From Sulfurovum sp. (GTDB lineage: Bacteria; Campylobacterota; Campylobacteria; Campylobacterales; Sulfurovaceae), in assembly GCA_027049035.1 (NCBI GenBank), contig JALTVI010000069.1:1-62952 (forward strand): a stretch of 62,952 nucleotides of DNA, written 5' to 3'. The stretch's first letter is position 1. The number at the start of each line of letters is the position of its first letter. Shown here piece by piece: positions 31,207 to 58,323 of the stretch. Position numbers and translations under genes: made by a program. The notes beneath the pieces were generated by a model. That model was not told the DNA's origin. It did not search any database and saw only the letters and a list, made by a program, of their open reading frames with translations.

Positions 31207-31262
31207 GCTCAACGCTCAACGCTCAACGCTCAACGCTCAACGCTCAACGCTCAACGCTCAAC
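31207..31262. repeat. Heptamer array (GCTCAAC)x8
   Basis: Eight perfect tandem copies of GCTCAAC. The miaA stop codon (31258-31260, minus strand) is formed by the last unit. A looser period-7 stretch (TTGGTTATTGGTATATTGG) lies at about 31051-31076. Confidence 0.95.
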
Positions 31263-32154
31263 GCAAAAGCATATTCTCAATCTCCCCCAACTCTCCCCGA
31301 ATGACATTATTAAACTGCGACCGGTTGAATGTCTCCTGGCGTTTGGCAAGGCGGCCTGTGTTGACGGCGATCTTCTCTTCGAGGGTAGATTTGTCGTAGA
31401 TGCCGTCGAGGTAGGCCAGTGTCTCTTTGATACCGATGGCTTTCATACAGTTTGGCGAGCGGGTATACTTTTTCTCAAGGGCGATGACTTCGTCTATGAG
31501 CCCTTGTTGGAGCATCTGCTTCGTTCTTAGTCTGATACGTTTTCGTAGCGCTTCTCTTGGCCATAGAATTTCATAAATGGGAAGTGGCTCTTCTATGATC
31601 GGCTTTGGCGGATTTGCTGCAAAGTAGATACCGGGAGGCGTCCCGGTTGCAAGATTGATCTCCAGAGCCTTTTGTAGGCGGTAGGTATCACCGGGTGCGA
31701 TCTGCTGCATATAGTTAGGGTCCAGTTTGGTGAGTGTATCATATACTCTTTTTTGATTTCGCATTTGAAAACCCACCTCTCTCTGTTCTTGCTTAGAGAG
31801 TGAAGGCATCTCGCTTATCCCTTCAAGAAGCATTTTCAGATAAAAACTTGTACCACCGACTATGACTAGATTTTTTCCCTCAGCAATACACGCCTTGCGT
31901 ACCTCTTTGTAGAGGTTAATGAATGTTGTAACATCGAAAGGTTCATCCGGGTAGAGATGATCGATACCATAGTGGGGGATGCCACCACGCTCTTCAGGTG
32001 TAGGTTTTGCCGAGACAATGTTGATCTCTTTGTAGATGGCAAGGGAATCAAGCGAGAGAATGAGGGCATTTTTTTGCTTTGCTACATGAATAGCCAGTGA
32101 GGTTTTACCTGATGCAGTGGGGCCGATGATGGCAAGTTGTTCAAAATGCTTCAT
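31258..32154 (-). CDS. miaA: tRNA dimethylallyltransferase
   Basis: 298 residues. It transfers a dimethylallyl group to A37 of tRNAs reading UNN codons; MiaB (44640) then methylthiolates the product. P-loop GPTASGKTS is at 11-19, and the substrate-binding segments DSLAIYKEINIVSAKP (36-51) and VGGTSFYLKMLLEG (about 98-111) are intact. The last residues and the stop fall in the heptamer array, so the natural C-terminus may have been changed. Confidence 0.95.
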   Translation of the reverse strand: MKHFEQLAIIGPTASGKTSLAIHVAKQKNALILSLDSLAIYKEINIVSAKPTPEERGGIPHYGIDHLYPDEPFDVTTFINLYKEVRKACIAEGKNLVIVGGTSFYLKMLLEGISEMPSLSKQEQREVGFQMRNQKRVYDTLTKLDPNYMQQIAPGDTYRLQKALEINLATGTPPGIYFAANPPKPIIEEPLPIYEILWPREALRKRIRLRTKQMLQQGLIDEVIALEKKYTRSPNCMKAIGIKETLAYLDGIYDKSTLEEKIAVNTGRLAKRQETFNRSQFNNVIRGELGEIENMLLR

Positions 32155-42864: not shown

Positions 42865-43000
42865 GATAGGGAGCAGGTAGTAGGGAGTAGGGAGCAGTTA
42901 AGGTTGGTATAAAGCAACCTATGAAAAATTGCTACCTGCTACCTGCTACCTGCTACCTGCTACCTGCTACCTGCTACCTGCTACCTGCTACCTGCTACCT
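42865..43000. repeat. Inverted heptamer arrays between tpiA and nusA
   Basis: Left block: GATAGGG, AGCAGGT, AGTAGGG, AGTAGGG, AGCAGTT (42865-42899). Centre: AGGTTG (42901-42906) pairs with CAACCT (42915-42920). Right block: ten perfect GCTACCT units (42931-43000). The left block is a degenerate reverse complement of the right one, so the transcript could fold into a long hairpin and serve as a two-way terminator between converging genes. The last unit forms the nusA stop codon. Confidence 0.9.
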
Positions 43001-47578: not shown

Positions 47579-47590
47579 ACATTAACAAAA

Positions 47591-47672
47591 GCATAGCAAA
47601 GCAATGCATTTCGGCACTATTTACGATTCACTCTTCTCTCTTCACTAAACAATACGCGTCTGCGTATTGTTT
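47591..47672. repeat. Heptamer-hairpin element inside the tilS 3' end
   Basis: Hairpin GCATAGC-AAA-GCAATGC (47591-47607, one mismatch), 9-nt linker ATTTCGGCA, four heptamers CTATTTA CGATTCA CTCTTCT CTCTTCA (47617-47644), then a perfect 11-bp stem AAACAATACGC (47647-47657) with GCGTATTGTTT (47662-47672). The heptamers and second hairpin encode the last 18 or so residues of TilS. Its stop TAG is the first heptamer. Confidence 0.75.
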
Positions 47673-52649: not shown

Positions 52650-54047
52650 TTAAAGCGCTTTGACGAGGTTTACAAAGGTCTCTCCGCGATGTTTGTAGGA
52701 GTTGAACTGGTCGAAACTTGCCGCTGCAGGTGAGAGCAGCGCGACGCTTTTTTCGTCGAGAACCTTGTCTATCATTGCAACGGCACTCTCAAGCGTGCCG
52801 GCCTCTTTGAGGTTGATGCCGAACTTTTGGGCAAGCGTCTTTATCTTTTGGCTGTTGGCGCCGATGCTGTAGAGGGTAAGCTCCATCGGTGCGATGAGTT
52901 CGAACAGCGGTGTAAGGTCGACGCCTTTGTCGTCACCGCCGACGATGAGGTGGATGTGACGGTCGGCATACCCTTTGACCGCCTGGATCGCCGCATCGAG
53001 GTTGGTGGCCTTGGAGTCGTTGACCCAGAGGCGCCCTTTGACATCGGTGAACTCCTCCTGACGGTGGGCATCACGCTTGAAGTGGTTGAGCAGGTCGTAG
53101 TCCGTTTCGTCAAAGAGTACTTTGGTGATGGCAAGCGAGAGGAGGGCATCTTGCAAAAAAGCACCCCGGTAGTTAAGCTTTGACGTATCGAGACCAAAGT
53201 AGTCGCAGAGAAAGTCGTTGCTGTCGTATTCGACGACAAAAGCATCGGATTTGGGCAGGTTCAGACCTTTGGGTACCAGTGCTAGCTCTCCCTCTCTCAT
53301 CGTTGTCAGCGGACGCAGCTTGTCCGCTTCGTACGCTTCTGGTGTTCCGTGCCAGTCGAGGTGGTCGGGTGTGATGGGCAGCAGCAGGTAGATGTTGGGT
53401 GAAGCGTAACGGGTATGGTGAAGCGTAAAGGAGCTTGTCTCCAGCACCCAGATGTTTGCATCAGGATCGAGCTCCGCCAGCGGCGTGCCGATGTTACCCC
53501 CGCTTACCGCACCGCGCTTTTCGAGCAGGTGTGTGAGCATCTGGGTGGTGGTGGTTTTGCCGTTGGTACCGCTGATCCAAACCGTGAACGGTTTGGATAG
53601 GTAGGAGGTAGGAGGTAGGAGGTAGGAGTGTCGGTATGCATCGCTTTGCGATGCTTCTGTTGAATTGCTCCCCGCTCCATGCCCCTTATTATCTACTATC
53701 TGCTCTCTGCTCCCTAGGAAAAAGTCGTATTCACTCAACAGGTGTTTGGCACTTTTAATGAGAGGGTGGTCTGGTTTTAGGCTGGGCGTGGTGATCTCCA
53801 GTTCGCTTGCATCGGGGTCGAAGAGGTGTGAGGGCAGAATACGGTTGCCCATATCATCGGTATAGGGCTCCTTGCAGTTGTCGTCAAAAAAGGTGCAGCC
53901 CCCGCCGAGCTTTTTGGCGATGGCTTTGGTGGTCAAACCGTAACCAAAGAGAGAGAGGCCCTCTTTGGAAAGTGAGGAATTAGGAACGAGGAATGAGGAG
54001 TTTTGGTATGCATCGCTTTGCGATGCTTTTTTTGATGGGGTATTCAT
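52650..54047 (-). CDS. murD: UDP-N-acetylmuramoylalanine-D-glutamate ligase with two in-frame repeat insertions
   Basis: 465 residues, about 40-60 longer than MurD of Campylobacter or Helicobacter. Core motifs are intact: LFGYGLTTKAI start, ATP loop SGTNGKTTTTQ, ITPDHLDWHG, and NDSKATNLDA. It adds D-glutamate to UDP-MurNAc-Ala. Two extra segments stand out: residues 7-28 (KASQSDAYQNSSF...) before LSLFGYG, and about 112-152 (REQIVDNK... EASQSDAYRHSY...) between the N-terminal domain and the ATP loop. Both come from the same heptamer-hairpin repeat in the same orientation and frame. The first provides the present N-terminus. Whether the inserts are tolerated as surface loops is inference. Confidence 0.92.
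   Translation of the reverse strand: MNTPSKKASQSDAYQNSSFLVPNSSLSKEGLSLFGYGLTTKAIAKKLGGGCTFFDDNCKEPYTDDMGNRILPSHLFDPDASELEITTPSLKPDHPLIKSAKHLLSEYDFFLGSREQIVDNKGHGAGSNSTEASQSDAYRHSYLLPPTSYLSKPFTVWISGTNGKTTTTQMLTHLLEKRGAVSGGNIGTPLAELDPDANIWVLETSSFTLHHTRYASPNIYLLLPITPDHLDWHGTPEAYEADKLRPLTTMREGELALVPKGLNLPKSDAFVVEYDSNDFLCDYFGLDTSKLNYRGAFLQDALLSLAITKVLFDETDYDLLNHFKRDAHRQEEFTDVKGRLWVNDSKATNLDAAIQAVKGYADRHIHLIVGGDDKGVDLTPLFELIAPMELTLYSIGANSQKIKTLAQKFGINLKEAGTLESAVAMIDKVLDEKSVALLSPAAASFDQFNSYKHRGETFVNLVKAL
53601..53715. repeat. Heptamer-hairpin element inside murD, second insertion
   Basis: Four GTAGGAG heptamers (53601-53628), linker TGTCGGTAT, hairpin GCATCGC-TTT-GCGATGC (53638-53654), 12-nt spacer, then seven degenerate heptamers from GCTCCCC to GCTCCCT (53667-53715). 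The whole is open in the murD frame. Confidence 0.88.
53971..54026. repeat. Heptamer-hairpin element at the murD start
   Basis: Heptamers AGTGAGG, AATTAGG, AACGAGG, AATGAGG (53971-53998), linker AGTTTTGGTAT, hairpin GCATCGC-TTT-GCGATGC (54010-54026). Same orientation and hairpin as the copy at 53601. Confidence 0.88.
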
Positions 54048-54099
54048 TGTCCGCTCTTTTATAGTATGTTTTGTGATTTTAGCACAATGTTGCTGTTTT

Positions 54100-54194
54100 C
54101 GTAGGGTGCGTAATCACGCACCTTCGAACCGTATGGTGATAGTAACGGTTATTTTTGATCAATGATATGAAGGTGCGAAATATCGCACCCTACG
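54100..54194. repeat. Double-hairpin palindromic element, copy 2
   Basis: Ends CGTAGGGTGCG (54100-54110) and CGCACCCTACG (54184-54194) pair. Inside are hairpins GGTGCGT/ACGCACC (54105-54122) and GGTGCGA/TCGCACC (54172-54189). It fills the murD-mraY interval and may be transcribed in that operon. Confidence 0.78.
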
Positions 54195-54218
54195 CGAACC
54201 CCTAAGTGCTTAACCTAA

Positions 54219-58153: not shown

Positions 58154-58178
58154 TACGGCATATGCCGTATTACATAAA
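58145..58178. terminator. Perfect 34-bp palindrome at the fabG end
   Basis: Arms TTTATGTAATACGGCAT and its exact reverse complement meet at 58161/58162 with no spacer, and include the last fabG codons and the stop. It would form a long hairpin and probably ends or stabilises fabG mRNA, although no T run follows. Confidence 0.6.
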
Positions 58179-58179
58179 A

Positions 58180-58307
58180 GTGAGGAGTGAAGAGTGAAGA
58201 GTGAAGAGTGTCGGTATGCTTTCTCGCAGAGAAAGCTTTTATTGATAATAGAGGCATCGCAAAGCGATGCAAACCAAAACTATTCACTATTCACTATTCA
58301 CTATTCA
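58180..58307. repeat. Two facing heptamer-hairpin elements
   Basis: Left copy: GTGAGGA plus three GTGAAGA (58180-58207), linker GTGTCGGTAT, hairpin GCTTTCTC-GCA-GAGAAAGC (58218-58236). Right copy, inverted: hairpin GCATCGC-AAA-GCGATGC (58254-58270), linker AAACCAAAA, four CTATTCA (58280-58307). The right copy is open in the frame of the next gene. Confidence 0.9.
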
Positions 58308-58323
58308 CTCACCAGAGATGTAT

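Follow-up and report, generated by a model that had tools for sequence, protein, structure and literature searches.

A heptamer-and-hairpin repeat of Sulfurovum, found twice in frame within murD, and its apparent rebuilding at orthologous sites

Two in-frame segments of the murD gene of a deep-sea Sulfurovum are copies of one short palindromic repeat that is dispersed across the genome. Probably, they represent a non-autonomous element of the genus that has come to occupy two permissive points of murD, is tolerated there, and is rebuilt by replication slippage and template switching. This reading draws on the dispersed family itself, the in-frame position of its genic copies, bare sites in relatives, a rule of orientation, paired changes in the hairpins, and palindromes at the element's borders; from these observations we infer mobility, translation, tolerance, and the template-switching step.

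The murD gene lies on the minus strand at 52650–54047 of the window (the whole stretch of DNA analysed, 62,952 nucleotides) as an ORF of 465 amino acids, with a single open frame spanning both inserts and a start codon inferred as the only in-frame ATG. Its product has Pfam matches to Mur_ligase_M and, weakly, Mur_ligase_C, and residues 151–464 are covered by matches to MurD structures. The two repeat copies (53592–53663 and 53964–54035) share 79% identity over 72 nt without gaps, in the same orientation and frame, much as the preliminary description had claimed, and the two near-identical peptides it quoted are encoded exactly in this ORF. A covariance model (R1) made from these and other genomic copies finds the N-terminal copy at 53969–54034 (84.6 bits), with the element's sense on the plus strand and the protein read on the minus strand. 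This copy consists of the heptamer array AGTGAGG-AATTAGG-AACGAGG-AATGAGG (53971–53998, plus strand) and the hairpin GCATCGC-TTT-GCGATGC (54010–54026, plus strand). The loop copy, placed before the ATP-binding motif at 53597–53662 (plus strand, 72.8 bits), has four units of AGGTAGG (53599–53626) and the same hairpin (53638–53654). Alignment with bare MurDs of relatives gives a longer insertion at this point, 53592–53708 on the minus strand, since a degenerate second heptamer array lies beyond the hairpin (about 53666–53717); in L052 this second array is a clean four-fold GGGAGCA. Just upstream of murD, at 54095–54199, there is also an inverted pair, GTAGGGTGCG...CGCACC, that resembles a GTAG-type REP.

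Downstream of the N-terminal insert, no in-frame ATG, GTG or TTG precedes the first strand of the MurD fold, so that translation through the insert would be required if MurD is made whole. An AlphaFold2 model built on an alignment of 36 MurDs gave pLDDT values below 50 at residues 1–24 and 121–150, which coincide with the two inserts, and at a short C-terminal loop (444–449), with high values over most of the remaining protein. Judged from sequence and predicted structure, translation of the inserts would give two flexible peptides, one a disordered tail at the N-terminus and the other a disordered loop linking MurD domains one and two, and the enzyme would tolerate both.

In its full form, the element comprises four heptamers, an 11-nt linker ending in GGTAT, a 7-bp hairpin, and a T-rich tail, about 66 nt in all, to which a junction palindrome is added. 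The earlier label of a heptamer-hairpin element was sound but incomplete: it omitted the linker, the tail, the adjoining second palindrome with its murD-coding outer arm, and the greater length of the loop insert. A DNA search of the element's own genome gave 67 matches, and a covariance model from 29 copies gave about 91 copies, far more than chance would yield, at roughly 39 bits or more, as examined in sequence stretches around the matches. No Rfam family matched the element. The heptamers number exactly four in most copies, and the unit varies among copies (AGTGAAT, AGTGAAG, AGTGAGG, AATGAGG, AGGTAGG, and others), with a unit identity of 0.886 within copies versus 0.688 between them. The hairpin arms are of 16 sequence types, with complementary changes among the stem variants, and almost every copy has GGTAT or GGTTT before the stem. 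Pairing is perfect in 45 of 52 full-length matches, a count that, like those from orthologues, is less biased than one of 100%, which holds by construction because perfect hairpins were preselected. Within the window, a further copy was found at 47583–47648 (minus strand, 54.6 bits), and two copies form an intergenic doublet with facing hairpins at 58177–58311. A perfect 30-nt palindrome, TATGTAATACGGCATATGCCGTATTACATA, adjoins this doublet just upstream of 58177. Long perfect heptamer arrays that lack a hairpin also occur in the window, namely GCTCAAC repeated 8.3 times (31207–31264) and TGCTACC repeated 10.1 times (42930–43000). Long arrays of the GAATGAG type are found at or in other contigs (G000:C27:1–129, the end of C52, and C44:5603–5727), and since contigs end in them, assembly seems to break there.

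About six of the 91 copies lie inside genes. Besides murD, these are anmK, a cca/poly(A)-polymerase-like gene, lnt, and the signal peptide of lptE, as determined from Pfam matches and ORFs spanning the copies; the name lnt is based on the sequence and a weak match to CN_hydrolase. Most of the long ORFs across other copies were discounted as genes, being antisense shadows or upstream extensions. The AnmK protein has 31 residues at the insert, compared with 7 in the solved homologue 3cqy, and the site is bare in G035. All full-element copies within genes are antisense, as in murD. The preliminary description held that the repeat is short of stops as read, and this is borne out: two or three frames are open on the opposite strand in 47 of 79 copies, whereas in 62 of 79 the sense strand is closed in every frame. 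The orientation within genes is therefore forced: stop codons are all but lacking on the array's CU-rich strand, so that a single orientation would survive there. Both murD copies use one and the same frame, as had been noted, but this does not extend across genes: murD and anmK share a frame, and cca, lnt and lptE use another. In LptE, the hydrophobic core of the signal peptide is partly heptamer-encoded (G000:C72:38680–38745), with another form in G055; the G055 gene was considered as a bare site and rejected, since its signal peptide, too, appears to be encoded by heptamers. The alanyl-tRNA synthetase gene alaS (G000:C69:44341–44402) contains a stretch resembling the heptamers, GELGIRNEELGI, in the opposite orientation; it is common to G002, G031 and G055 and varied in G035.

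The preliminary description had called for an alignment of Sulfurovum MurDs, and this gave bare sites with continuous flanks. The closest named relative, L048 (MurD identity 89%), lacks the N-terminal copy, with flanks that align and a protein that begins MKPSLFGYG; the copy is present in L050, L051 and L053. The loop is a plain EYDYFAKEMPFSIW in many relatives, and others carry inserts. It is filled by the same element in the window, L048, L052, L054, L089, L156, L157 and L160, as well as in decayed forms; by a GTAG-type REP (GGGTGTTGTC...GACAACACCC) in L049, L050 and L061; and by heptamer arrays only in L051 and L053. In a maximum-likelihood tree of the MurD core, the window and L048 adjoin L049 and L050, and L089 adjoins L053. 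This sister placement of differing inserts indicates that loop content was replaced several times between sister lineages, and on these alignments the MurD inter-domain loop is apparently a recurrent landing site for different repeats. Heptamer arrays also enclose another small repeat, AGTCCCCCAGGGGAGCTTCTCTTGCTTCGCAATTCACCTTCTGA (the L048:1757–1811 region, L237, L273, and G000:C72 at about 38600); the arrays concerned include those in the murD loop of L048, where it too is in frame, and in lnt of G002. More broadly, sampling of 61 genomes of the genus showed the heptamer-and-hairpin element in 45, with a patchy distribution that ranges from 0 to at least 85 copies per genome. In a sample of 200 genomes of the phylum, only the element's own genome and G118, of the same family, were positive, with traces in two others.

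Comparison of orthologous loci suggests how the copies change. Arrays switch their heptamer unit as a block and the flanks stay aligned; the cca array, for example, has units of ATGAGGA, AGTGAAG or AGTGAAT in different genomes. At ten loci outside murD, hairpin pairs read by eye comprised 13 changes on both sides with pairing kept, 4 G-T pairs, 2 broken pairs, and 156 unchanged pairs, the orthology of arrays and hairpins being taken to involve no re-insertion. Decayed orthologous hairpins occur in L055, L166, L167 and L173. From these sequences, arrays appear to be homogenised and hairpins re-perfected over time.

The element's borders show a related feature. A perfect palindrome of at least 6 bp lies near or abuts the array start in 19 of 41 copies, versus about 4% of random window positions. 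In murD, the N-terminal junction palindrome CCAAAGAG-(9)-CTCTTTGG (53944–53968) has as its outer arm CTCTTTGG, the conserved murD codons for LFG, and the loop junction palindrome ATCCAAACCGT-GA-ACGGTTTGGAT (53575–53598) has as its outer arm ACGGTTTGGAT, the murD codons for TVWI. The N-terminal arms are 11–14 bp long in L053 and L050, versus 4 bp or less where the insert is absent, and the 14-bp arms of L050 match the codons of L050 itself (ACTTTGTTTGGATA). In L089, L055, L056, L166 and L167, the loop insert pairs instead with CCTTTCA, encoding PFT. Overall, junction palindromes with murD codons measure 8–14 bp in most inserted genomes and 5 bp or less in genomes without an insert. Template switching during DNA replication yields a reverse-complement copy of adjoining sequence and has been proposed for the origin and upkeep of hairpins (PMC8794818), and the junction palindromes plausibly arose when such a switch copied host sequence.

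A short, non-coding, non-autonomous repeat would thus have been inserted or copied into two permissive points of murD; slippage in the heptamers during replication would homogenise the arrays, and template switching at the hairpins would re-perfect the arms and form border palindromes with host sequence, including murD codons. More tentatively, it is conceivable that the element is maintained, and perhaps even spread, without a dedicated transposase, with slippage and template switching copying host codons into its palindromes.

Turnover could instead reflect ectopic gene conversion among dispersed copies, a possible but rather doubtful mechanism. Conversion from copy to copy could also swap hairpins, and it would suit the block-wise change of the cca array, all of whose unit types are present elsewhere in the genome. 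However, the rare cca hairpin GTGTTTC is kept from the element's own genome to G031 while the array shifts from the ATGAGGA to the AGTGAAG type, and the junction palindromes hold locus-specific host codons that would not be expected in donor copies. It has also to be considered that the hairpins are RNA elements, such as terminators or leaders that mask a Shine-Dalgarno sequence, with selection on RNA pairing keeping the arms matched. A hairpin with a T-rich tail does resemble a terminator, and several copies immediately precede start codons, the junction palindrome surrounding a GGAG. This explanation is quite improbable nonetheless, as the other strand is transcribed in murD, anmK and cca and pairing is still kept, and G-T pairs are rare in the stems (2 of 364 cells).

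As for mobilisation, no transposition event, target-site duplication or mobilising gene was found in the genomes compared; with regard to MITEs, which are defined by terminal inverted repeats and target-site duplications, both ends of the element are hairpins, and the bare sites compared are too diverged for a duplication to be read. Movement as a REPIN-like element by a Y1 (HUH) transposase of RAYT or IS200 type, which would recognise the hairpins, would agree with the arrangement of close copy pairs, 13 of 14 of which are inverted with hairpins facing, as in REPINs (PMC3116915), and the element's own genome has two Y1 transposases, one IS200-like and one RAYT-like. The Y1 transposase was nevertheless rejected as the carrier, and this origin is unlikely: Y1 genes do not correlate with copies across the genus, in that G019 (100% complete, 49 copies), G033, G041 and G037 have many copies but no Y1 match, while G039 has 31 Y1 matches and no copies. 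Moreover, the RAYT-like gene (L047:2656–3426) is flanked by other repeats (TTATTATTATCACCTGACCCC), the arm sequences vary widely, and the copies have no GTAG or CGTC tag. Finally, the inserts could be an artefact of assembly or binning, given that the sequence is a MAG with heptamer arrays at some contig ends. Independent assemblies (L050, L051, L053, L054 and L089) have the same inserts, and single-contig genomes carry dozens of copies (79 in G015, at least 26 in G118), making an artefact, which the preliminary description had itself raised, extremely improbable.

With this element, gene-invading palindromes extend to Sulfurovum in a different design and with dozens of orthologous copies in related genomes. 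Such copies make it testable whether paired hairpin changes originate from a mutation mechanism or from selection, and by what route essential enzymes acquire new peptide segments. The loop between the MurD domains, refilled by different repeats in sister lineages, is a natural record of such events.

Several known repeat systems share parts of this picture. Rickettsia palindromic elements (RPEs) are short palindromic repeats found in frame inside functional, unrelated genes (PMC10969869), and the parallel drawn in the preliminary description is apt, as the present repeat likewise lies in frame in conserved genes (murD twice, anmK, cca-like, lnt, and lptE). It differs in its core of about 66 nt with a heptamer array, a separation made on anatomy rather than sequence comparison, and in its share within genes, about 6 of 91 copies versus nearly half for RPEs. 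Beyond what RPEs display, orthologous copies differ in arms and heptamers yet stay paired and homogeneous, and array ends often form new palindromes with host codons. The GTAG/CGTC REPs, in which a terminal GTAG or CGTC tag adjoins a stem of 6–13 bp, are small stem-loops with covarying stems that occur as singles and dimers, sometimes intragenically and even twice per gene, and they are known from Sulfurovum NBC37-1 (PMC3733652). The earlier remark that no report was known from this phylum therefore needs some qualification, although the four-heptamer and hairpin design was not found in the mostly open-access literature searched on repeats of Sulfurovum and Campylobacterota. The present element resembles these REPs in its covarying stems, its singles and dimers, and its occasional intragenic copies, two of them in one gene, but has GGTAT or GGTTT before the stem and four heptamers upstream in place of the tag; in L049 and L050, this murD loop is itself filled by REPs of the GTAG type. 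REPINs are inverted hairpin doublets dispersed mostly between genes (PMC3116915), and the inverted, mostly intergenic doublets described here are similar, but unlike the REPIN/RAYT system they do not track with Y1 transposases and do not flank the RAYT-like gene. Heptamer direct repeats in dispersed tandem arrays have been described as TAACTGA in Beggiatoaceae (PMC4679880) and as heptameric repeats in Nostoc and Xanthomonas (PMC4692102). As summarised in those reports, they are arrays alone, whereas here mostly exactly four units, varying by copy, are fused to a hairpin. Intragenic palindromic repeats as such are already known; the four-heptamer and hairpin anatomy appears to be new, and the turnover of the element is unusual.
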